DNA from: a virus
DNA: 29,610 bases
Virus record (IMG/VR): IMGVR_UViG_3300017971_000642
Span: 1-29,610 of that record
Strand: one strand, 5' to 3'
Position numbers and translations under genes: made by a program. Shown one piece after another: positions 4,465 to 25,925 of the stretch (within the stretch, counting starts at the first letter, position 1; every line of letters starts with the position of its first letter). The notes under the pieces were generated by a model that was not told the origin of the DNA, did no database searches, and saw only the letters and a list, made by a program, of their open reading frames with translations.

Positions 4465-7400
4465 TTAATTCAGGTTCTGAATAGCCTGGATCAACTCAGG
4501 ACTCCTACCCTGAATCCCTGCGGCTACAATTGCGTAGATCTGGTCATTGGTGAGACCACCGCTTCCAGCGGTATTGATCATAATTTGTTCTGTTAAGGTT
4601 AAAAGGGTTTCCCAATTCTGGTCAATCTTATCGGCCCTGGTTTGAGCATTCTGGTTTACCAGGGAAAGATCCCCCAGGACGGTGTCGACTATATCTGAAT
4701 AACCGCCAAAGGCTTGCATAAAGGAAAGGTAGTCCGGAACGAACTGGTTCAAGGCAGACATTGCATCCGCAAGATCTTCATCGGGGGCGGCTAATGCAGA
4801 ACCTAAAAGGGTCTGGTACTGCTGGTTATAATATTCTGCACTGGTAACTGGCGCCATGGGTCCCCCGGACAGTTGGTGGATAAGATCACTGGTTTCCGCT
4901 ATAGCTCTTGCAATGCTGAGAGCAGACTCTTCCTGGACCTCGATGTTTTCCTGGATCTGTTGGGTCGTGTACTCTATGGCATCGGCCCTCAACTGCTCAA
5001 CCCTTGCCATTTCCTGTGCCAACTCAACAGCCTGTTCGATGGGATCGTAGGTTTCCTTCAATGCATCGGCCCAGGCATCGAAACGGTCCTCAACGTCCCA
5101 CAGTGCCTGATCAAGTTCTGTTGCGGATCCGGACAGTTCACCCATGTATCTCATAATGTCGACATTGATATCCCCCCGTTGCTCGGCAAATGCCTTTTCG
5201 ACTTGTTCAAGGGCCAATGTCTGAGCATCAAGGACATCCTGGTAAAGTTGGATTTCGTCATCGGTCAACAGCCCACGTTCCAGTGTCTTTATGGTGTCCC
5301 GGATCTGCTGTCTCAGATCTGCTCTTGATTGTTCGGCAGAGGCTACTAAACGGTCGTATTTTTGCCGATTGAATTCCCGGACAAAGTTACCCTCACGATC
5401 AAATCTGAAAGACGTTGCTTCGAATCTCAGGGCGGCATAGTCGATATCGGGAATACTCTTCAGAAGGTCCCGTTGACGGTTTATCTGAAAGATGAGCTTG
5501 TTATTGGCCTGGAGCATACCCTTGGCATCTGCAAAATGACCCTCCCAGGTTTCGGTGGCCATCTTAACGGCAGTCTGATAGGCGGTATCGTCATACTGAA
5601 GGTCGTATATGTAATCAGTCATTTCATCGATCATGTTCTTGGATATGATGATAATCGACTTTACATAATTGGACCATGCCTGGAGGCTTGTGGTAAGGGC
5701 CGCTTTTGCGGCATTGATCTTTTTCTGGTCACTCTCATTGACCACCGTGTCGATCATTGCACCTTCTGAAGAAAGGTACTGCCTACCCTGGCTTGCATCC
5801 CGGATCCCTTTCAGGGCGTCTTTGAGTGAATCATTCGCTGAATAAAAAGCCTGGGTCCAGTTTCCAATACTGTTGTTCAGCTTGTTTATCTCATCGCCAA
5901 GTGTGGACCCTATCTCCATAAGGGATGCGGTCAGGTTTTCCAGGTCCTTGCGGATGATATCGTTCATGTTCGGCTTGCTACCCATGAGGTAGTCTGTCAG
6001 TTTCATGGATGCAAAGCCAGCCACCGGGTCAAGTCCAGTGAACTGCGTGAACCCGAATTTTTGAGCATCGGACAAATCGTAATATTTGTCTTTGTATCGG
6101 TCCATGTACGATCCGCCAAACATCATGGCACCACCGATTGCCATCCCCTGCCAACTTCCCTGCATTGCTGAATTGGCCGTGATTTGGGATCCCGTCCGCA
6201 TTATGGTGTCAGCCAAGTTTTCCATTTCAACCTTGCCCGTTTTGGCAACATCGTAGAATGCGTCCGCCAGGGTATCCCGGATGATACTGGCAAGGGAAAC
6301 GTAAACCTCCTGGAGTTCCCCGGCCGTGTCGACCAGGGTGTCCTTCATTTCATCGCTGGACTTTTCCAGCATCCCGTTGATCCTGGTGAATTCATCGGAA
6401 AGGGAATCCATTGACATCGACCGGGGAAGATCCTGTTCGAAAATCTGATCAACGCCCCACACCTTCCACATGTCCTCCCGGATCCGCTTTGCGGTAACCT
6501 CTATGGTGTCAAGCTGGATGATCCTTTTTTCAACCTGTTTGTTATAGTTGCTGGCGGCAACTGTCAGCTTTTCGGTCTCTTCCCGTTCGTTGGTCAATAG
6601 ATAAAGTTTGTCCTGCAGCAACTTGATTTCTGTCTGATATTTTTCGATGAAAAGGTTCTTTCCAGGCATATTGCCCTTTTCATACATTGCAATCAGATCC
6701 TGGAGTTCCTTGATCCGGGCGGTCCACATTGCCTCGTTCGTTGTGGCCTGTTCACTCTCCAGGAGATTTCCGAAATTTTTGCCGAAGTCATAGGATACGG
6801 ATGCAAGTGCCGTTAAAAATGCACCCTTTTTGCCGAACAAGATTGCACCAAGGATCCCGTACCCTGCGGCACCCTTGATCTCGTTTGGGATAGCATTGTA
6901 TGTGTCAATTATTCCGCCGATGGAATTCTTTATGTTGTCGATGTATTCAGGGACCTTGACCTTGATCAGTTCCCGGTTGGTCTGTAACCAGTTGCTGGTA
7001 AGCCTGTTCAGTTCGCCCAACTGCGTTTTCAACTCTTCGAACACCCCGGCATCCATGACTTCCCTGGAGATTTCCACCATGTAGCTTTTGAATGTGGCGG
7101 TCAGTCCCTGCCATGATGTTTGAGCTTGCTTTGCGGCACCAGCATAATCGGCATCCAGGCCCTGCCAAATACTCTCGACAACCTTGTTGATTTCAATCCC
7201 GGACTTCTGGATTTCCTCAACCGTCATCCCGAAGGCGTCTTTCAGGTACTTTCTGGCATTGATACCGACTTCAGCCATCTGGTTAAGATCCTGGGCGGTC
7301 AGTTTACCAAGTGACTGCATTTGGCCCAATGCTCTTGCAACCCTCGGCATGGCCTCTTCACCAAAAATAGATGCAACATCCACCAGGGTTTCCATCTTTG

Positions 7401-7746
7401 CAATGGTGGGATCCAGGCCCATAGCTTGCATCATGGTAAAGGTGTCAACGGCCTTTTGGGTATTGACAGGCATTTCAAGAGCCCATGCATTCAGATCTTC
7501 AAGCGTTTGCCGGCCCTTTCCCCTGGTCAACACATCGAGCTTGATTTCCATCTTCTCGAAAGAGGACGCAACATCCAATGCACCGGATGCAACCGCTTTA
7601 AGGCCGTAACCACCAGCCAGGGTGACAAGTCCGCCCTGAAGGGAGAAAACCGACTTTTTAACCTTGTCGATCCTTCCGGTCAGTTTGGTAAAAGCGGCCC
7701 CTGTAATGTCTTTAGCCGCCAGGACTATTTCTAATTTAGAATCCAT
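4465..7746 (-). CDS. Tail tape measure protein
   Basis: A 1093-residue protein, by far the longest helical gene of the tail module and directly after the chaperone region. The N-terminal ~250 residues match the tape-measure N-terminal domain: LEIVLAAKDITGAAFTKL, a Gly-rich hydrophobic LVTLAGGYGLKAVASGAL, then SFEKMEIKLDVLTRGKG and LTAQDLNQMAEVGINARKYL. Another hydrophobic segment lies near residues 290-315 (GYGILGAILFG), and a Gly/Met-rich one near 530 (MAIGGAMMFGG). Most of the rest is charged, coiled-coil-like helix. Tape measures set tail length at about 0.15 nm per residue, so a tail of roughly 160 nm is inferred. The ribosome binding site is weak. It may be processed at the C-terminus as in lambda gpH, which cannot be seen here. 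Confidence 0.93.
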   Translation of the reverse strand: MDSKLEIVLAAKDITGAAFTKLTGRIDKVKKSVFSLQGGLVTLAGGYGLKAVASGALDVASSFEKMEIKLDVLTRGKGRQTLEDLNAWALEMPVNTQKAVDTFTMMQAMGLDPTIAKMETLVDVASIFGEEAMPRVARALGQMQSLGKLTAQDLNQMAEVGINARKYLKDAFGMTVEEIQKSGIEINKVVESIWQGLDADYAGAAKQAQTSWQGLTATFKSYMVEISREVMDAGVFEELKTQLGELNRLTSNWLQTNRELIKVKVPEYIDNIKNSIGGIIDTYNAIPNEIKGAAGYGILGAILFGKKGAFLTALASVSYDFGKNFGNLLESEQATTNEAMWTARIKELQDLIAMYEKGNMPGKNLFIEKYQTEIKLLQDKLYLLTNEREETEKLTVAASNYNKQVEKRIIQLDTIEVTAKRIREDMWKVWGVDQIFEQDLPRSMSMDSLSDEFTRINGMLEKSSDEMKDTLVDTAGELQEVYVSLASIIRDTLADAFYDVAKTGKVEMENLADTIMRTGSQITANSAMQGSWQGMAIGGAMMFGGSYMDRYKDKYYDLSDAQKFGFTQFTGLDPVAGFASMKLTDYLMGSKPNMNDIIRKDLENLTASLMEIGSTLGDEINKLNNSIGNWTQAFYSANDSLKDALKGIRDASQGRQYLSSEGAMIDTVVNESDQKKINAAKAALTTSLQAWSNYVKSIIIISKNMIDEMTDYIYDLQYDDTAYQTAVKMATETWEGHFADAKGMLQANNKLIFQINRQRDLLKSIPDIDYAALRFEATSFRFDREGNFVREFNRQKYDRLVASAEQSRADLRQQIRDTIKTLERGLLTDDEIQLYQDVLDAQTLALEQVEKAFAEQRGDINVDIMRYMGELSGSATELDQALWDVEDRFDAWADALKETYDPIEQAVELAQEMARVEQLRADAIEYTTQQIQENIEVQEESALSIARAIAETSDLIHQLSGGPMAPVTSAEYYNQQYQTLLGSALAAPDEDLADAMSALNQFVPDYLSFMQAFGGYSDIVDTVLGDLSLVNQNAQTRADKIDQNWETLLTLTEQIMINTAGSGGLTNDQIYAIVAAGIQGRSPELIQAIQNLN

Positions 7747-7792: not shown

Positions 7793-8101
7793 TCATTTTT
7801 TGCCGGATTTCTTGACATTCTTGGATTTTGGTTTGGAGGCCGTTTTTGCCTTGATGGTTCTCGGATAAACCTCGGTTTTAAGGCCTCTTACAAGTGTTGG
7901 TTTGAGCTTGTAACACTTGGGACACTTCATGTAGATACCACCGTTGTCGACCTCATAAACTGCCCCACCTTTGATGGTAATACCACCTTTGATCTCAACA
8001 CCTTTAACGGCAACCTTGACCCGGCAATGATGACACGCACCATCCATCTGGACAGGAAGTCCATTCTCTTTGACGATACCCTTAAAAGTCGCAAGTTTCA
8101 T
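7793..8101 (-). CDS. Small zinc-ribbon protein in the tail operon
   Basis: A 102-residue protein with two CxxC knuckles, CHHC (residues 23-26) and CPKC (60-63), separated by a beta-rich linker with IKGG repeats (VEIKGGITIKGGAVYEV). The C-terminal ~25 residues are Lys/Ser/Thr-rich and probably disordered. The knuckle arrangement predicts one bound zinc. The start overlaps the stop of the upstream gene as ATGA, so it is translationally coupled to it, and it lies just before the tape measure. I do not recognise a named family. Its place in the operon suggests a minor structural or assembly role. Confidence 0.7.
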   Translation of the reverse strand: MKLATFKGIVKENGLPVQMDGACHHCRVKVAVKGVEIKGGITIKGGAVYEVDNGGIYMKCPKCYKLKPTLVRGLKTEVYPRTIKAKTASKPKSKNVKKSGKK

Positions 8102-8709
8102 ATTCTCTCTCCCTTCATCTTACGCCTAAAATTTTTCCTGATATTGACCTTTGCTTCATCCTTATGAGCTTCCCAAAAAGGTTCCACAATCGGTCTCGCA
8201 GGGGTTCGGAATGTTGTGGTCGACTTCCGGATGAACATGATTCTCCGGATCCGGTTCCTTTTGCCAAGGAGACCACCGACCATCCTGAAATAGTCCCTTG
8301 CAAGGTCGCTCATGCCGTGGGTAAAACCTTCCTGTTGCATTTTGGCAATTCGCTTCCAGGACCTGGAAACATTTTTCCCTGTGAATCCAACCCTCATATC
8401 GAAATTCGGGCTGAACTTCAGGTTATACATGATTGCTCTGACGATAGAGTGTCCTGATTTGGTTCGTAGGAATGGCCTGTCCGGTCTGGAACGTTTGGTT
8501 CCTCTTTCATGCCATCTTCTCGATAGGAAAGACAGGGGAGCAAACCGCTTACCACCTGGGGATCCTTTTGCAACTTCCGACCTCATGGTTCTCATCAATC
8601 GGAAACCTTCGAACTTAACGGCTACCCGCATTGCTCTTTCTTGCCGTTTAGACTCGGCTTTAAGGTCTCTCTTTAGCTTACTCAGCCCCCTTACGGTTAC
8701 TTTTAACAC
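8098..8709 (-). CDS. HK97 gp10 / gpZ-like tail completion (virion morphogenesis) protein
   Basis: A 203-residue, very basic protein. The N-terminus (LKVTVRGLSKLKRDL, then a long helix with AMRVAVKFEGFRLMRTMRSEV) resembles the HK97 gp10/lambda gpZ/Mu G group, which join head and tail. Further on it has KRFAPLSFLSRRW and a C-terminal ARPIVEPFWEAHKDEA, similar to the rP(f/i)(l/v)xPa motif near the end of such proteins. Translation starts at a GTG (8709) behind AAGGGG, inside the end of the chaperone extension frame (32-base overlap). In lambda gpZ lies upstream of the tube gene; here the gene lies after the chaperone, so the functional equivalence is an inference. Confidence 0.6.
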   Translation of the reverse strand: MLKVTVRGLSKLKRDLKAESKRQERAMRVAVKFEGFRLMRTMRSEVAKGSPGGKRFAPLSFLSRRWHERGTKRSRPDRPFLRTKSGHSIVRAIMYNLKFSPNFDMRVGFTGKNVSRSWKRIAKMQQEGFTHGMSDLARDYFRMVGGLLGKRNRIRRIMFIRKSTTTFRTPARPIVEPFWEAHKDEAKVNIRKNFRRKMKGERI

Positions 8710-9279
8710 TTTTTGATATCCCCTTTAATGTTACAGATTCAAGCGTTCTTAGCTTATTCCACATGCAGGGCGATAGATCTATTTCCATGTCTTTGGCGAT
8801 AACGATGACTGTGTTGTAGTCGAGACCCATGACGGACATGCCTACCCTCCATTGGGTCGATACGGCCATCCAAAGTTCCATGGCCTCAAGGTTCTCTTCT
8901 AAAAGATCCGGACCCTTGCCGTATTCACAAGCGTCACATTTGTCGAACTTCTTACAGGCATCGCAGTACTTTAATCGCTCTTGGTCTGTTCGCCAACTCC
9001 AGACCTCTTCAAGTTTTTTTCCTCTTCCTTGCTACCGAAAGACTCCTTCAGAATGGCTCTCCAAATAGTGAGAGCATCCGGGTTGGGAAGTTCGTCAATC
9101 CGCTCAATGTCCCGATCATCGAAGATCATATCAAAAACCCTGTCAAGGCAGTCATCTGCATTTTCAGGGGTTAGGTTGTTGATATCGAGACCATCTGCTT
9201 TTAGCTTTTTGACTTCACCCCTTTTCAAAGGGCGAACATCGAACGATTGTTCCGGGTTACCTACTTTGATTTCTCTCAT
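8678..9279 (-). CDS. Tail assembly chaperone, -1 frameshift product (gpGT-like)
   Basis: A -1 shift on the heptamer at 9019-9013 joins the first 89 residues of the short form to an extension of 111 residues that is open down to the stop at 8678, giving about 200 residues. I translated the new frame by hand: it continues LEEVWSWRTD, then holds two CxxC knuckles (C106/C109 and C115/C118, both CDAC), then enters a segment (MELWMAVSTQWRVGMSVMGLDY) typical of the DUF1799 family, the T-type half of these chaperones. The end (LEEVWSW...SNRKGAE) overlaps the next gene. An internal ATG at 8881 exists but has no good ribosome binding site, which favours the frameshift route. The shift is inferred from sequence only. 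Confidence 0.8.
8971..9279 (-). CDS. Tail assembly chaperone, short form (gpG-like)
   Basis: A 102-residue acidic/basic helical protein between the tail tube and tape-measure genes, the standard site of the tail assembly chaperone. It starts MREIKVGNPEQSFDVRPLKRGEVKKLK and has a central acidic helix (ADDCLDRVFDMIFDDRDIERID). Such proteins bind the tape measure and recruit tube subunits, and are absent from the virion. Near its end, codons 87-89 (GAA AAA AAC) contain a canonical slippery heptamer, so a fraction of ribosomes should shift to the -1 frame and make the longer product. The unshifted frame ends 13 codons later. Confidence 0.82.
   Translation of the reverse strand: MREIKVGNPEQSFDVRPLKRGEVKKLKADGLDINNLTPENADDCLDRVFDMIFDDRDIERIDELPNPDALTIWRAILKESFGSKEEEKNLKRSGVGEQTKSD
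8983..9019 (-). promoter_or_regulatory. Programmed -1 ribosomal frameshift signal
   Basis: The slippery heptamer A AAA AAC (9019-9013) is exactly in the X XXY YYZ register of the zero frame. After a 7-base spacer (9012-9006) comes a perfect 6-bp stem, GGTCTG (9005-9000) with CAGACC (8988-8983), around an 11-base loop. Spacing and layout match known stimulatory hairpins. There is no stop in the -1 frame between here and 8678. Confidence 0.8.
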
Positions 9280-9301: not shown

Positions 9302-9378
9302 TGGGAGCGGAGAGGGGATTTGAACCCCTGACCTCAAGGGTATGGGCCTTGCGAGCTACCAGACTGCTCTACTCCGCA
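9302..9378 (-). tRNA. Initiator-like tRNA-Met, anticodon CAU
   Basis: A 77-nt cloverleaf folds cleanly: acceptor TGCGGAG/CTCCGCT with positions 2-7 paired and 1-72 a T-T mismatch; D arm GAGC/GCTC with AGTCTGGTA; anticodon stem CAAGG/CCTTG around loop CCCATAC; T arm AGGGG/CCCCT with TTCAAAT; then CCCA, so CCA is encoded. The unpaired 1-72, A11:T24 and GG/CC at 30-31/39-40 are initiator features. Oddities: C instead of the near-universal U at position 33, and only two of the three usual GC pairs in the anticodon stem. It lies in the 117-base gap between the tail tube and chaperone genes, on the same strand. Confidence 0.9.
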
Positions 9379-9396: not shown

Positions 9397-10344
9397 TTAT
9401 GCGTGTGCATCACCGTTCGTCAGTTCAACGACTACGGCGGATGCGTCACCGTGATCGTCATAGTACCCCTGGAAGTTAAGATCTACCAGGAGACCTTGGG
9501 GTCCGGGGATGTCCGGGCTATTCCGGCTATACTGGATTTCATTGAACTCGATGATCATCTTCAAGCTGGCGCTCTGTGTGACGGTAATCACCAGACTTGA
9601 CTCGGTTCCGGCCTCCGCCTTGTCCAGCAGGGTATCATCTTCGAACAATGTTTTCAGGTTGCCGGATACGCCCACGATCCCTTCTGGCAGGGATCCACGC
9701 ACTCCGGATCCGCCTATGACGTAATTGTTGGGATCAAGACCGAAATTAACGGCAAATGACACTTCCAGGGCATTCGATAACGCACCACCGCCCTCTTCCA
9801 GCGAAACCTCGAAGTTATCCAGACGGTCCAGGGAGATCATCGAAGTAGGGGAAGCATCAAAGGGGGAAGTGGCCTGGGTGTCGACACATCCGATAACGTC
9901 AATATTCGAAACCAGTTCACCGTCACCGCCAAGGTTCATGCTCCAGTTGTTCACCTTGCATCCGGTGTACTGATAGTAAAGGTTTGTTGAAAGGTCCGTG
10001 TATTGGGCCTCGATGGAATAGCTCGGCATGGTGTCACCAATGTCGAACGTATGAACATAAGGGCCGGTTCCAGTGGTGGTCGGATCACCGAACATCATCT
10101 GCAACCAGTACCAGAATGCCGTTGCATCGAGCGGAGCAACAATGGTTCCCCCAACATCGCGGTTTCCACGGAAAGGCACAGCCGGATTTCTTGTCCCGGT
10201 CAAGGTCCCTGGTGTATTGACAGCCTGGGACCCTTTGAGATTCATACTGTTGAACGGCATCAGGAATCCAGCGGACGCCAAGGTCTTAAATGTCGATTCT
10301 TCGCCAATGACCAATTGGGAAGTTACGCCTTTTTGCTGTGGCAT
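9397..10344 (-). CDS. Major tail tube protein
   Basis: A 315-residue beta-rich protein in the position of lambda gpV. It opens with MPQQKGVTSQLVIGEESTF, typical of long tube proteins of the Phage_tail_tube group, and continues with repeated beta-sandwich patterns: GNRDVGGTIVAPLDATAFWYWLQ, YTGCKVNNWSMNLGGDGEL, and late VVVELTNGDAHA. The residues around SLDRLDNFEVSLEEGGG and LVITVTQSASLKMII fit a second tube-like domain, so it may be a two-domain protein. It would polymerise into the tail tube around the tape measure. A GGAGGTG site precedes ATG 10344. The gene is followed immediately by the tRNA rather than directly by the chaperone. Confidence 0.85.
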   Translation of the reverse strand: MPQQKGVTSQLVIGEESTFKTLASAGFLMPFNSMNLKGSQAVNTPGTLTGTRNPAVPFRGNRDVGGTIVAPLDATAFWYWLQMMFGDPTTTGTGPYVHTFDIGDTMPSYSIEAQYTDLSTNLYYQYTGCKVNNWSMNLGGDGELVSNIDVIGCVDTQATSPFDASPTSMISLDRLDNFEVSLEEGGGALSNALEVSFAVNFGLDPNNYVIGGSGVRGSLPEGIVGVSGNLKTLFEDDTLLDKAEAGTESSLVITVTQSASLKMIIEFNEIQYSRNSPDIPGPQGLLVDLNFQGYYDDHGDASAVVVELTNGDAHA

Positions 10345-20283: not shown

Positions 20284-21252
20284 ATGGCGAAAGTAGCAGA
20301 TTTGGCACAGCAAGTCAAGGCCCAGAATGAGCGTTTAGGTCTAACCCCTAAAAACAATACGGCCAAGTCCGGGAAAACGTCCAGGAAGGGGTCTGAGACC
20401 CCCAAATCCGGGACCGGGACCAATTCCGGCACCAAACCCATTGACAAGGGGTCAAAGTCCCCGAAAACGGGACCTGAGACCCCTAAAAAGGGAAATCCCC
20501 CAGGAAAAACCCGGAAAAAGGACAAAAAACGGACCACGTTGACCAATGTCAACACATCCAAAAAAGTGGATGATCACAGGAAGGGGGCCAAGGATGAGAA
20601 AAAGCCCACGGAAAAGCCTAAAGATCCGCCGAAGGTCAAGGAATGGTATGAATCGTTCGGTGGAATATCCAAGAAAATGAGTATTTCCGGGGGAAACAAG
20701 AAACTAGGACAGGTACCGTACCTTTCTCTTCCGCCTGGGGAGACATGTTCCAAAGAAATCCCTTGTTATGACATGTGTTACGCCCAAAAGCAGACCGGAA
20801 TGCTTGCAAGTGTTCAGTCCGGCTACAAAAAGAACCTGGACTTCTGGAAATCGGCCCCGGATGACTTCTGGAAAGGGTTGAAGTCCTGGATCAAGTTAAA
20901 AGGGGACATCACCATGTTCCGGTTTCATACCGCTGGGGACATACCGTCCCAGGAATACCTTGACGGTCTGATCAAGTTGGTGGCGGAACACAAAGACATC
21001 GTATTTATCCTGTTTACCAAAAAATACGATCTGAAGTTCCCAACCCCGGCCAAACTTCCCGGAAACCTTGTCCTGATCTTCAGTATGTGGCCTGATCTGA
21101 AATTCCCAAAAAAACTGTCCGGATACAGTCGGGCATGGATTGAAGGGGACCCACGGATCCCGGCCAAGGCAATGAAGCTCTACGGGACCTGTGACTATTT
21201 CGGCCTTGATATGAGGGGTACGGAATGGGACATCATTTTCAGGAAAATATGA
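20284..21252 (+). CDS. GP88-like protein with long disordered N-terminus
   Basis: A 322-residue protein. Residues ~20-118 are a low-complexity Lys/Thr/Pro/Gly/Ser linker with near-repeats such as GSETPKSG and GPETPKKG. The C-terminal ~200 residues match the phage 'gene product 88' family: YLSLPPGETCSKEIPCYDMCYAQ (Cys 155, 161, 165), then FRFHTAGDIPSQEYLDGL, DIVFILFTKKYDL and NLVLIFSMWPDL. The Cys cluster, beta-alpha repeats and RxHxxGD motif suggest a barrel enzyme distantly like radical SAM proteins, but spacing is C-x5-C-x3-C, not the canonical one. GAGGAGCGAACC precedes ATG 20284. Last gene of the operon; activity unknown. Confidence 0.75.
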   Translation: MAKVADLAQQVKAQNERLGLTPKNNTAKSGKTSRKGSETPKSGTGTNSGTKPIDKGSKSPKTGPETPKKGNPPGKTRKKDKKRTTLTNVNTSKKVDDHRKGAKDEKKPTEKPKDPPKVKEWYESFGGISKKMSISGGNKKLGQVPYLSLPPGETCSKEIPCYDMCYAQKQTGMLASVQSGYKKNLDFWKSAPDDFWKGLKSWIKLKGDITMFRFHTAGDIPSQEYLDGLIKLVAEHKDIVFILFTKKYDLKFPTPAKLPGNLVLIFSMWPDLKFPKKLSGYSRAWIEGDPRIPAKAMKLYGTCDYFGLDMRGTEWDIIFRKI

Positions 21253-21298
21253 CCTCCTGATTTGACGTATAACGGGACTTAATCCCCTTCCGGCATAG

Positions 21299-21326
21299 AT
21301 CCCCTGGATTTTCGGATCCAGGGGAT
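21299..21326. terminator. Hairpin between convergent genes, probable bidirectional terminator
   Basis: ATCCCCTGGAT (21299-21309) and ATCCAGGGGAT (21316-21326) form a perfect 11-bp stem with a 6-base loop, between the ends of the rightward GP88 gene and the leftward large terminase gene. Neither side has a clear T-run, so it is a strong hairpin of terminator position rather than a textbook intrinsic terminator. Confidence 0.6.
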
Positions 21327-21350
21327 TCTATCGCGCAAAAATCTCCCCTA

Positions 21351-23279
21351 TTAACGGTTTAACCAGTTCCCCCCGGTCTGTATCCAGGGATTGTGTTGTT
21401 CCTCAACTGGCTCGACTTTGGGGGTCTTTGGTTTCAGCTGGCTACCAACCAGCTTCAGACCTCCGGACCACTGTGGATCCGCACATGCATGTGCATAGAT
21501 GGAGCAATCCAGATAATGGTTGTCCTTTCTGATCTTGACCCACTCCCATTCCAGGTTTTTATTCCGCTTTTTCTCTTCCGCCAGTAACTGGTTGAAAAAG
21601 ACATCATCGGTTTCCCGGTGGAAGTGAAGGGGCTGTGGATCCGAATCTTTGTTGGACACCCTCCAGAAAAAAACGTCCTTAAAAGCATGAGTGTCCAGGA
21701 ACCACAGGACCAGGCCTCCGGTGATCCTTGCTTTAGTCCCCGGCATTTTATCAATGATTGTATGGCGGACCCGTTGTCCCCCGGTCCTGTTGGTCATACC
21801 CTTGATCCCCCATGCCGTATTCATCCCGTTATTCCGCAACCACTGGTAGATTTCTTCAGTCTTTGGATGCTCCCCCTCTTCACCGGGACCACCACCAGTG
21901 TCCACAGCGGCTCTCCAAATGGACATGGTGTATTCCGGGTTGTCCTGGATCTCGAATTCCCTGGAAAATATAAGAGCGAATACCTCATCCCAGGTTGTCA
22001 GCCATCCGTAGTCGATCAACCAGGATTCGAACGTTTCCGAAAAGGCCCACACGGTAAAATAAAACCCGTATTTCTGGACATCGACCCCACAGGTCAAAGC
22101 TATTGCATCCTTCGGCACGATCCCGGCTGGCATATTGTTTTTCCGGTTTTCAAGCTCATCGAACATCGGCTTTTCAGCCAGATCCTTCCAGGGTTTTGCC
22201 AACCATCCGTTCGTGAAGTTCTGAAGGTCCGTTATCACGCCTTCTTCCCTCAGCTTGTACTTTGCTCTCAGAAACTTTTCCGCCACATCCCCCCATCTCA
22301 ACCAGGGTGAATAAAGGGATGACACATGGAAACCGATTTTTTCGGTCTGGTATTTAAACTTTTTATCGGCGATGTATTCACCGTGTTCCCCCATTTGCGA
22401 CTTGTGGTGATCCCCTATGGGTCGACCACATTCGATGCATTCATACCGGGCTGTATTCTTGGCAACATTGATCCGTTCGTGTCCTTCGCCCTCCAGGTCG
22501 AACTTGATCTGTTCGAACACCAGGGTCTGCATCCATTCACAGTGCGGACAGGGGACATAGAATCTTCTGATTTCATCACATGAGTTTAGTTCTTTCCAGA
22601 TACCGATCTCTTCCAGGGTCGGGGAACTGACATCAACTATCTTGCGGATATCCCAAAAGCTCTTGGTTCTCTCTTCGGACAGGTTCAGTGGATCCGCGTC
22701 CTTACCCACCCTCAATGGATATTTGTCGATTTCATCCCGCAGGACGTTCCGGCATGGCTTTTGAGCAAGTGCGGCAGCTGAATTGGCACCCACCAGATAT
22801 AGGTCCATGCCTGGGAAGTGCATTTCAAGCAACTGGTAAAGTTCCCGTTTGTCCGGGATCTTTTCCTTCAGGAATTCAGAGGCCTCGAACATGGGTCTCA
22901 CCCTGGTCCGGGAAATGGTTTTCGCGTCATCTTCCCTGGGGTAAACAACCATCGTGGAATAGGGTTCAAGGTCGATGATATAGCCAAGGATGTTATACAG
23001 GCATTCGGTTTTTCCAAGCTGTGTGCCGAAACATAGGACGATATGTCGAATATTTGGATCCCGGTATGCGTTCATGGGTTCTTCAAGGTAGGGAGTGAGA
23101 CCTGTTGACCAGGGGCCGGGTTGACGGGATGTTCCGGGTTGAAGGATCCTTCTTTCATCCGCCCAGGTGGACACCCCTATGTCCGGTGGTGGACGGAACG
23201 CCATTCGTTCGTTACCTGTCCATTCTGCTTTGTTCTCGCAATCAATAACACCGTCCCATTCAATGCAGACATCCGACAT
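21351..23279 (-). CDS. Terminase large subunit, lambda GpA family
   Basis: A 642-residue packaging ATPase/nuclease. The ATPase part has Walker A GTQLGKT (residues 85-91) and TMVVYPREDDAKTISRTRVRPMF. A zinc knuckle pair follows (CPHC ... CIECG, about residues 250-285), typical for GpA. The C-terminal nuclease domain begins ALTCGVDVQKYGFYF with its first Asp and includes VDTGGGPGEE and the late DNHYLDCSIYAHACA. It cuts concatemers and pumps DNA into the prohead. Its start overlaps the small subunit stop as TGATG. Unusually, the next minus-strand gene is 5 kb away because of the inverted operon. Confidence 0.95.
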   Translation of the reverse strand: MSDVCIEWDGVIDCENKAEWTGNERMAFRPPPDIGVSTWADERRILQPGTSRQPGPWSTGLTPYLEEPMNAYRDPNIRHIVLCFGTQLGKTECLYNILGYIIDLEPYSTMVVYPREDDAKTISRTRVRPMFEASEFLKEKIPDKRELYQLLEMHFPGMDLYLVGANSAAALAQKPCRNVLRDEIDKYPLRVGKDADPLNLSEERTKSFWDIRKIVDVSSPTLEEIGIWKELNSCDEIRRFYVPCPHCEWMQTLVFEQIKFDLEGEGHERINVAKNTARYECIECGRPIGDHHKSQMGEHGEYIADKKFKYQTEKIGFHVSSLYSPWLRWGDVAEKFLRAKYKLREEGVITDLQNFTNGWLAKPWKDLAEKPMFDELENRKNNMPAGIVPKDAIALTCGVDVQKYGFYFTVWAFSETFESWLIDYGWLTTWDEVFALIFSREFEIQDNPEYTMSIWRAAVDTGGGPGEEGEHPKTEEIYQWLRNNGMNTAWGIKGMTNRTGGQRVRHTIIDKMPGTKARITGGLVLWFLDTHAFKDVFFWRVSNKDSDPQPLHFHRETDDVFFNQLLAEEKKRNKNLEWEWVKIRKDNHYLDCSIYAHACADPQWSGGLKLVGSQLKPKTPKVEPVEEQHNPWIQTGGNWLNR

Positions 23280-23935
23280 CAGTAATCAAGCCCCCTTGAA
23301 TATGCATCCATTAAACGGTGGACCTCTTTGTCGATAATAGCGACAACCGCCTTGTAGTCCTGGGATCCCTTTGCCGCCACCTTGTGACCAATTCTCCTGG
23401 ACAGAACCAAAAGGGACCTTGCAAGTTCATAGGCCCGATTCTCAAAAGCCCGTTCGACATCATCGACCGGGATCAATTTTTTCCGCAACTGGTCGACAAT
23501 AAGTTCTTCCCGTTCAGCTTTGGCAACGCGATACCTGTAGTTTGCCTTTTCGGTTTTCTCATGGGTGGTGATGATCTTCTTTTTGTGCTTTCCGCCACCA
23601 GCTTTTAACCATGCATCGACTGTTTCCTGTTTTATGGTTCCGTCCGGTTCAAGGGCAATTTTCTTGGACTTGTTGATATGGTAACTGATCGTTCTTTTTG
23701 TGACCCCGGCATAATCAGCGGCTTCCTGGAGAGTTTTGAATATACCGGGTCCCTGTTGGGCCTTGCCGTTCAGGTGGGATGATATTTCGTTTTCGAGTTT
23801 CCGGAATTCCTTCAACTCGGATGCATTTAACTCATGACCACTGGCGGCTTTTTTGACAAGCCCCTGATAGATCTTGACCTTCGCTATTTGACCAGCGGCG
23901 AGACTGCTTTCGTAGACTTCTTGCTCATTTGCCAT
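23279..23935 (-). CDS. Terminase small subunit, Nu1-like
   Basis: A 218-residue protein in front of the large subunit. A helix-turn-helix region about residues 65-110 (FKTLQEAADYAGVTKRTISYHINKS, then GTIKQETVDAWLKAGG) is the DNA-recognition domain, as in Nu1. A basic linker GGGKHKKK and a long helix (EKANYRYRVAKAEREELIVDQ) precede the C-terminal helices that bind the large subunit (ENRAYELARSLLVLSRRIGHKVA). ATG 23935 lies inside the end of the radical SAM gene, a 52-base overlap. Confidence 0.88.
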   Translation of the reverse strand: MANEQEVYESSLAAGQIAKVKIYQGLVKKAASGHELNASELKEFRKLENEISSHLNGKAQQGPGIFKTLQEAADYAGVTKRTISYHINKSKKIALEPDGTIKQETVDAWLKAGGGKHKKKIITTHEKTEKANYRYRVAKAEREELIVDQLRKKLIPVDDVERAFENRAYELARSLLVLSRRIGHKVAAKGSQDYKAVVAIIDKEVHRLMDAYSRGLDY

Positions 23936-25260
23936 TTATCGGACCTCACGACCTTCCAGGGTGCGGTTTCTTCGGTGTATGTTCCACAATACTTTTCGGT
24001 TCCGCCAAATGGCTCAAGGTAAAGTTCCAGCTTTTTGATGTTGAGCGACATGGGGCGTCCACCACGGACATTCAGAGCATTTTTCCGGACCAAATGTTCT
24101 TCCATTTCCTTGAATTCCGGACCGGCCCTGGTGGATAGCATAGACAGAACCCTTGAAGTAGGCCCGAACACCCGGTTAGCTTCACACATCATCACCTTCC
24201 AGCCCCGTTCACCTTCTTTGGACATTACCCTGTGCCATTTTGAGCGATAATCCCTCCAATAGTGGATGTTGTCGTATTCCATAGGCGTGTGGGGGGATGG
24301 CATAAAGACATTGGGTTGCGGTTTCAAAAGGAAGTTTTCCGCACCAGGGATCTCTCCGATCATTTCGAACATATTTACCATGTCCGCCCAATCGTCCTCA
24401 TCTTCGCCCGGTAGATCCAGAATGAAATACATGAACAGACCTCTCCGACCAGCATCGATAAGTTTTTTTACCTGGGTGAAGATCTTTTCGTCCGTGTAGG
24501 CCTTATTCACAGACTTCCGGAGCTTATAGGATATCCCCTCGATCCCCACCCTTGGCATGTTGTCACGCCTTTTACCAAGATTATCGAGCCGAATATCGGT
24601 ATCCAGGCGTGTTTTGCCGAATATGTCACACAAGTCATCGACTTCCTTGTCCTGGGAATGAAGAGTGGGTTCAGGGGCGAACAATGCAACTCTTTTGACC
24701 GTACACCCGACCAGAGCCCTCTTGATCTCTTCGACAGGTACCTCTCTATACGGTTTCAAGAACGTGACCGCACAGAAACGGCATTTATACCGACACCCCC
24801 TTGCAATTTCTATCCGGCCTATCTGGTTGGTTTCGTGACAGTACCCCTCGAGCGGATCCACGATCTGGTATTCGACCGACTTGTCCCCGTCCCGATAGAC
24901 CCCCGGCAAATCAGCGTCAAGGTTTTCGATGAGTTTGTAAAGGGTTAGCTCTCCATCACCAACGATCACCGCGTCAGCATATTTCCCGAACGGGACCGGG
25001 TTGAAAGTATTGAACCCACCGACAATTATGAATGGCCTCCTGGACAGATCCTGGGACTTGTCTATCTCTGCCTTTCTAAGAAAGTCGGCCATGACATAGA
25101 TATGTTCCCACCAGAAGCACGAAAACAGCAAAACATCCACATACCTTGCTGTTCTGGGCGAGACACGGAAAAATTCATGTTCCTTGCTGATCCTTTGCAT
25201 GGACAAAGACAACCCATAGCTGAAGTCATCACGCCCAAAAGTCAAATATCCGATCTTCAT
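23884..25260 (-). CDS. B12-type radical SAM enzyme
   Basis: A 458-residue protein. I take ATG 25260, two bases after the DUF5131 stop and 8 bases after GGAGG; a longer frame upstream lies in the neighbour gene. Residues 1-145 look like a B12-binding Rossmann domain (RPFIIVGGFNTFNPVPFG, YADAVIVGDGELTLYKLIENL) but the DxHxxG cobalamin motif is missing. The radical SAM 4Fe-4S motif CRYKCRFC (Cys 156, 160, 163) follows, then GIEGISYKLRKSVNKAYTDE and MYFILDLPGEDEDDWAD, typical of YgiQ/MiaB-like members. It would cleave S-adenosylmethionine to modify an unknown substrate. The gene overlaps the small terminase by 52 bases, so expression is tied to packaging genes. Confidence 0.82.
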   Translation of the reverse strand: MKIGYLTFGRDDFSYGLSLSMQRISKEHEFFRVSPRTARYVDVLLFSCFWWEHIYVMADFLRKAEIDKSQDLSRRPFIIVGGFNTFNPVPFGKYADAVIVGDGELTLYKLIENLDADLPGVYRDGDKSVEYQIVDPLEGYCHETNQIGRIEIARGCRYKCRFCAVTFLKPYREVPVEEIKRALVGCTVKRVALFAPEPTLHSQDKEVDDLCDIFGKTRLDTDIRLDNLGKRRDNMPRVGIEGISYKLRKSVNKAYTDEKIFTQVKKLIDAGRRGLFMYFILDLPGEDEDDWADMVNMFEMIGEIPGAENFLLKPQPNVFMPSPHTPMEYDNIHYWRDYRSKWHRVMSKEGERGWKVMMCEANRVFGPTSRVLSMLSTRAGPEFKEMEEHLVRKNALNVRGGRPMSLNIKKLELYLEPFGGTEKYCGTYTEETAPWKVVRSDKWQMSKKSTKAVSPLVK

Positions 25261-25262
25261 GT

Positions 25263-25925
25263 CTATACCTCCGGAAACTCCTTTAGTTTGTGCGGAAAAT
25301 AGGTGTAGTTGTCCTTGATCCAGACCCTGCACCCCTCTTGTTTCGCCACATTGACAATCCTGTCCGCCCATCCGAACGGTGGTTTTTCGGCACCCCTATT
25401 GGAGTTGGCCCCTATGATGATCCAGTGGATCCCGGACAGGTTCAATTCATGCTGGTAAATCTTTTTTAACAAGGGTTCGAACGATACAAACTTTATCCTA
25501 TCGCCCGTGTAGCTGTAAAGGGAGTCTATTTTATCGACCCCGTGTTTATCCCCGTCAACGGTGGTTCCGTACCAGCCATTCTCCGGAAGATCAAACTCGG
25601 CGTACCTTTCAGGGTTCTTGGTTAAAAACTGGTAGGTGTGCCAGGGTGTGGCCCTGCAAACGTCCAGGACTTGGTGAATCCAGGACGGTTCGACCCATTT
25701 ACCCCACATATCGCCGGATGAGCATACAAAGATTTTGGCCGGCTTTTGCTTTCTGCCCGGATCCAGAAGGTAATTTGGTCTGAATTTCGGTTTCATGGTT
25801 CCCTTGAACCTTTTCTCCAGGCGGAGCATATAGCAATACGGACATCCGTGTAGGCACCCGGCTATTGGGTTCCATGTCCAATCCGTCCAATCGATTTTGT
25901 CCGCTCCTTGTTTGTTCATCGTCAT
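25263..25925 (-). CDS. DUF5131 (Gp37/Gp68-type) radical SAM-like protein
   Basis: A 220-residue protein with the family signature IDWTDWTWNPIAGCLHGCPYCY; Cys 24, 28 and 31 give the canonical radical SAM CX3CX2C cluster. Further family blocks are IFVCSSGDMWGKWV, TPWHTYQFLTKNPERY, IKFVSFEPLL and WIIIGANSN. The likely activity is 4Fe-4S/SAM radical chemistry on an unknown, perhaps nucleic-acid or nucleotide, substrate. AAAGGAGG lies before ATG 25925. It ends 2 bases before the B12-type radical SAM gene, so the two are co-translated. A 304-base insertion separates it from the gene upstream. Confidence 0.85.
   Translation of the reverse strand: MTMNKQGADKIDWTDWTWNPIAGCLHGCPYCYMLRLEKRFKGTMKPKFRPNYLLDPGRKQKPAKIFVCSSGDMWGKWVEPSWIHQVLDVCRATPWHTYQFLTKNPERYAEFDLPENGWYGTTVDGDKHGVDKIDSLYSYTGDRIKFVSFEPLLKKIYQHELNLSGIHWIIIGANSNRGAEKPPFGWADRIVNVAKQEGCRVWIKDNYTYFPHKLKEFPEV

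Follow-up and report, generated by a model that had tools for sequence, protein, structure and literature searches.

The 29,610-nucleotide virus sequence analysed here (the window; IMG/VR record IMGVR_UViG_3300017971_000642) very probably encodes a programmed -1 ribosomal frameshift of the lambda G/G-T type, from which a short tail assembly chaperone and its -1 fusion would be made. Comparative sequence evidence strongly supports the frameshift cassette. The initial annotation had proposed such a cassette with a tail-chaperone role, and this is borne out by a heptamer that is universal among relatives, a DUF1799 domain, and a position between the tube and tape measure genes. The conserved cassette is real and of an already known kind, and its slip site is ordinary for the DUF1799 family. 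Its parts and the flanking tail genes are as follows.

8971..9279, minus strand: zero-frame gene, G-like tail assembly chaperone, 102 aa, with Shine-Dalgarno sequence AAGGAGGT before ATG 9279
9019..9013, minus strand: slippery heptamer A_AAA_AAC, zero-frame codons GAA AAA AAC, the exact -1 register
8983..9005, minus strand: downstream stem-loop GGTCTG-11 nt-CAGACC, 6 bp, from folding of the window and conservation in relatives
8678..9013, minus strand: -1 frame extension (T-like), 111 codons plus TAA at 8680-8678, from ORF reading and profile matches
8927..8965, minus strand: CDAC-x5-CDAC module, extension residues 17-29 (C17DAC20, C26DAC29), from sequence and conservation
8723..8896, minus strand: DUF1799 domain (PF08809), extension residues 40-97, from a profile match and from the similarity of the extension's predicted fold to annotated tape measure chaperones
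9397-10344: tail tube protein (Phage_tube_2), profile match
4465-7746: tape measure protein (TMP_3), profile match

The zero-frame ORF covers 89 codons from its ATG up to and including the slip site, and continues for 13 codons past the heptamer before the stop at 8971. The coordinates first given for the cassette, the register of the heptamer and the claimed 111-codon open -1 frame are all correct. A stop in the -1 frame only a few codons upstream of the heptamer rules out entry into the extension from any long ORF further upstream. For the G protein itself, profile and family searches gave no significant family match, the PHROG 344 (tail assembly chaperone) profile reaching only E 0.084. Its AlphaFold model (pLDDT 91) has two strands and four helices, and annotated tail assembly chaperones are among its top viral fold matches, at non-significant E values above 0.5. 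An upstream Shine-Dalgarno-like GAGG was considered as a general shift stimulator and rejected; it is common among the relatives but absent in the GTA/ATA-preceded subgroup.

The first relatives were found via the tail tube and capsid proteins; the fused protein by itself, used as a query against viral contigs, yielded none. In those that have the extension, GAGGAAAAAAAC occurs in identical phase (7/7). Alignment of their extensions led to 80 loci; the peptide patterns used for this search came exclusively from DUF1799, so that possession of the heptamer played no role in the selection. With the window included, the sample comprised 81 virus sequences, or 69 after removal of near-identical copies. 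The homolog alignment, set beforehand as a possible refuter of the frameshift, showed an in-phase heptamer at the same junction in all relatives found (81/81 sequences). The non-redundant loci, which are not phylogenetically independent, have A_AAA_AAC in 65 and G_GGA_AAC in 4 of 69 cases. If both heptamers were as frequent over the total overlap length as they are, in phase, within the long ORFs of these loci, 0.8 in-phase heptamers would be expected by chance, as compared to 69 of 69 observed in this set of phylogenetically related loci. One alignment search of bacterial genomes found nothing, and a further one found a single Candidatus Wallbacteria MAG contig, likewise with A_AAA_AAC, which does not identify the host.

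Codon usage points in the same direction. The slip-site AAA is retained in 15 loci where AAA serves less than 30% of the Lys codons, and for retention of AAA AAC against codon bias the log10 p values sum to -74 over 65 loci. The first -1 residue is Leu and the base after the heptamer is T in every non-redundant sequence (69/69 for each). Judged from these sequence comparisons, the heptamer at the junction is not a product of chance. An A7 run, present in the window and in most relatives, might also let RNA polymerase add or lose an A, so that the fusion would arise by transcriptional slippage without ribosomal frameshifting. We consider this highly improbable. The conserved unit is the heptamer and not a longer run, several relatives having A6 only (e.g., GTAAAAAAC and ATAAAAAAC), and the four relatives with G_GGA_AAC would offer a slipping polymerase only three-base runs. 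Furthermore, the conserved phase and the downstream stem are what ribosomal slippage would lead one to expect.

The stem following the slip site had been described as a 6-bp helix after a 7-base spacer, and both elements are present in the window (spacer TTGAAGA), but the stem of the window has no stability advantage over dinucleotide shuffles (z +0.62) or synonymous recodings (z -0.05). It is among the weaker stems of the group. Because it is indistinguishable from shuffles, the stem is unproven from this phage alone and its support comes from the relatives. There, positions 10-12 past the heptamer have the highest pairing probability (0.95-0.96), and folding of the approximately 50 nt that follow the slip site is more stable than in synonymous recodings that preserve the -1 protein (mean z about -1.5), as compared to z values of -0.1 to -0.8 for other windows of the same genes. 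In 31 distinct indel-free sequences 84.7% of the stem cells are paired, with 8 cells changed on both sides; none of 500 shuffles and no slid register reached the fraction of paired cells or the covariation score of the stem. Other relatives have a 3' arm located farther away as the partner of this 5' arm. These alignments indicate that the stem is conserved in relatives and carries a signal beyond codon choice.

The profile search proposed for the supposedly DUF1799-like extension returned Pfam DUF1799 (PF08809) with E 6.8e-10 and 39.5 bits, above the curated cut-off of 26, and the domain was matched by all aligned extensions of relatives (61/61). The extension also matches PHROG 680 (E 8.4e-17) and, over residues 12-103 with the Cys region included, PHROG 23549, a family whose function is not known. 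Its structural model has a pLDDT of 90.5, and among the viral folds that it matches best are those of annotated tape measure chaperones from phages F20, Solomon, W011D and Scapp. When the G and extension models were compared with the PDB, no meaningful match was obtained for either.

A separate DUF1799 gene is annotated in some cultured phages, and in the window an ORF from an internal ATG at 8881 (67 aa) spans most of the DUF1799 domain. The extension might thus be translated independently as the second of two genes whose overlap is incidental, but the relatives make this very hard to maintain. They have L, W or F where the window has the Met at 8881, so that the internal ATG, named beforehand as a start whose exclusive use would count against a fusion, is not conserved. 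The conserved part begins at the heptamer, and translation from the internal ATG would leave out the invariant Leu1 and the Cys pairs. Retention of the heptamer against codon bias likewise argues against two genes, a reading to which we give very little credence.

With a programmed ribosomal frameshift, the majority of ribosomes would stay in the zero frame over AAA AAC and terminate 13 codons on, releasing the short chaperone G of 102 aa. A minority would slip back one base on A_AAA_AAC, aided by the short downstream stem, and produce a 200-aa fusion whose extra part would consist of a four-Cys module and the DUF1799 domain. In lambda the tape measure is bound by G, and the tail tube protein by the T part (PMC5009743); by analogy, the tape measure protein would be coated by G, and the fusion would use its extension to recruit the tail tube protein. 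The amount of fusion and its binding partners are what we infer here. E. coli ribosomes shift weakly on A_AAA_AAC, far less than on A_AAA_AAG (PMC5009743, PMC4066793), so the efficiency in the host of this phage is uncertain; weak slippage as in E. coli would be consistent with a low fusion ratio.

The two CDAC knuckles had been put forward as a distinctive trait. Both motifs are present, but they are not peculiar to this phage: Cys pairs of the form CxxC-x(5-36)-CxxC occur upstream of DUF1799 in 62/69 non-redundant sequences. Six of the seven exceptions form a Cys-free group (L090-L095) and the seventh, L087, has variant spacing. The linker between the retained pairs varies from 5 to 36 residues in the relatives (see L033, L036, L040, L042, L045 and L047), with long charged insertions in some. 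Among the cultured phages examined, the Cys pairs are absent except in Microcystis phage MACPNOA1, which has CRECRAHGRCDGC. Two conserved CxxC pairs are a trait of zinc knuckle or zinc ribbon modules. No Pfam match was found for extension residues 1-39, nor did a PDB sequence search return a match for the Cys module.

Since the Cys module lies wholly upstream of ATG 8881, it could be carried by the frameshift product only. With slightly less than even confidence, we propose that the frameshift adds a putative metal-binding four-Cys module, exclusive to the fusion, beside the DUF1799 domain. If so, tail initiation in a large, almost wholly uncultivated phage group would require the rarer chaperone in a metal-stabilised state. 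The module is the sole part of the cassette for which we found no description, and as a candidate metal-binding patch suggested by its sequence it is a possible lead rather than a result.

Comparison with known systems places the cassette close to lambda gpG/gpGT (PMC5009743). Common to both are a short protein and a -1 fusion from a single start, encoded between the major tail protein and tape measure genes, and an X_XXY_YYZ heptamer near the end of G. The heptamers differ (G_GGA_AAG in lambda, A_AAA_AAC in the window), as do the extensions: that of the window matches DUF1799 and no other Pfam family. Unlike in lambda, G follows a tRNA gene in the window, and two small genes separate the fusion from the tape measure gene. 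The slip site had been presented as distinctive in comparison with lambda GGGAAAG, which did not hold, since A_AAA_AAC or G_GGA_AAC is the norm in DUF1799-type phages, cultured ones included.

The same two heptamers were found in 10 of 12 cultured DUF1799 phages examined; in the other two, 2725-N35 and phiKp_7-2, no canonical in-phase heptamer was detected by the pattern used. Klebsiella phage Solomon (PMC8407766), Enterobacter phage Phc, HK639, HK578 and Serratia phage Smarc2 share A_AAA_AAC, the phase, the -1 direction and DUF1799 with the window. The Solomon fusion was annotated and reported as a programmed frameshift (PMC8407766), the Smarc2 fusion is annotated as a frameshift product, and the predicted fold of the window's extension matches the Solomon and F20 chaperones. 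These five phages differ from the window in having the zero-frame stop immediately after the heptamer and in lacking the four-Cys module. For Acinetobacter phage Loki, AAAAAAC beside the stop codon of a chaperone gene (gp12/gp13) was noted in 2017 (PMC5313236). As far as the part of that description consulted goes, Loki resembles the window in having an HK97 gp10-like gene between the chaperones and the tape measure, and DUF1799 and the Cys module are not named in it. By slip-site description, the haloarchaeal viruses HCTV-1 and HCTV-2 also use the two sites of this family, G_GGA_AAC and A_AAA_AAC, but in archaeal hosts (PMC5009743).

The 69 diverged bacterial-virus sequences thus provide a clean comparative case of a tail-chaperone slip site fixed as A_AAA_AAC or G_GGA_AAC, a type reported to be preferred by mammalian ribosomes and to act weakly in E. 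coli. With standard ORF calling the DUF1799 chaperone is missed or truncated and nothing of the Cys module is retained; both frames should therefore be joined when these phages are annotated.

The gene order, tube - G/T - HK97gp10-like - small gene - tape measure, is the same in the relatives. Between the fusion and tape measure genes lie an HK97gp10/Neck1-like gene and the gene of a small CxxC protein (102 aa, 7793-8101, minus strand). The latter protein gave no significant family match; it has CHHC and CPKC pairs and may be a zinc ribbon. A tRNA-Met (CAT) gene (9302-9378, minus strand) separates the tube gene from G, whose start codon follows after about 22 nt. It looks initiator-like, with a 1:72 mismatch and an encoded CCA, and its position is retained in L002, L003 and L004 and absent in all more distant loci scanned. 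This tRNA could be a processing point that splits the tube and chaperone messages. Around the terminase gene, within 20284-25925, we observed genes for a GP88-type protein (20284-21252, plus strand), a radical SAM protein (23884-25371, minus strand) and a DUF5131 protein (25263-25925, minus strand), the reading frames of the latter two overlapping by about 109 nt.
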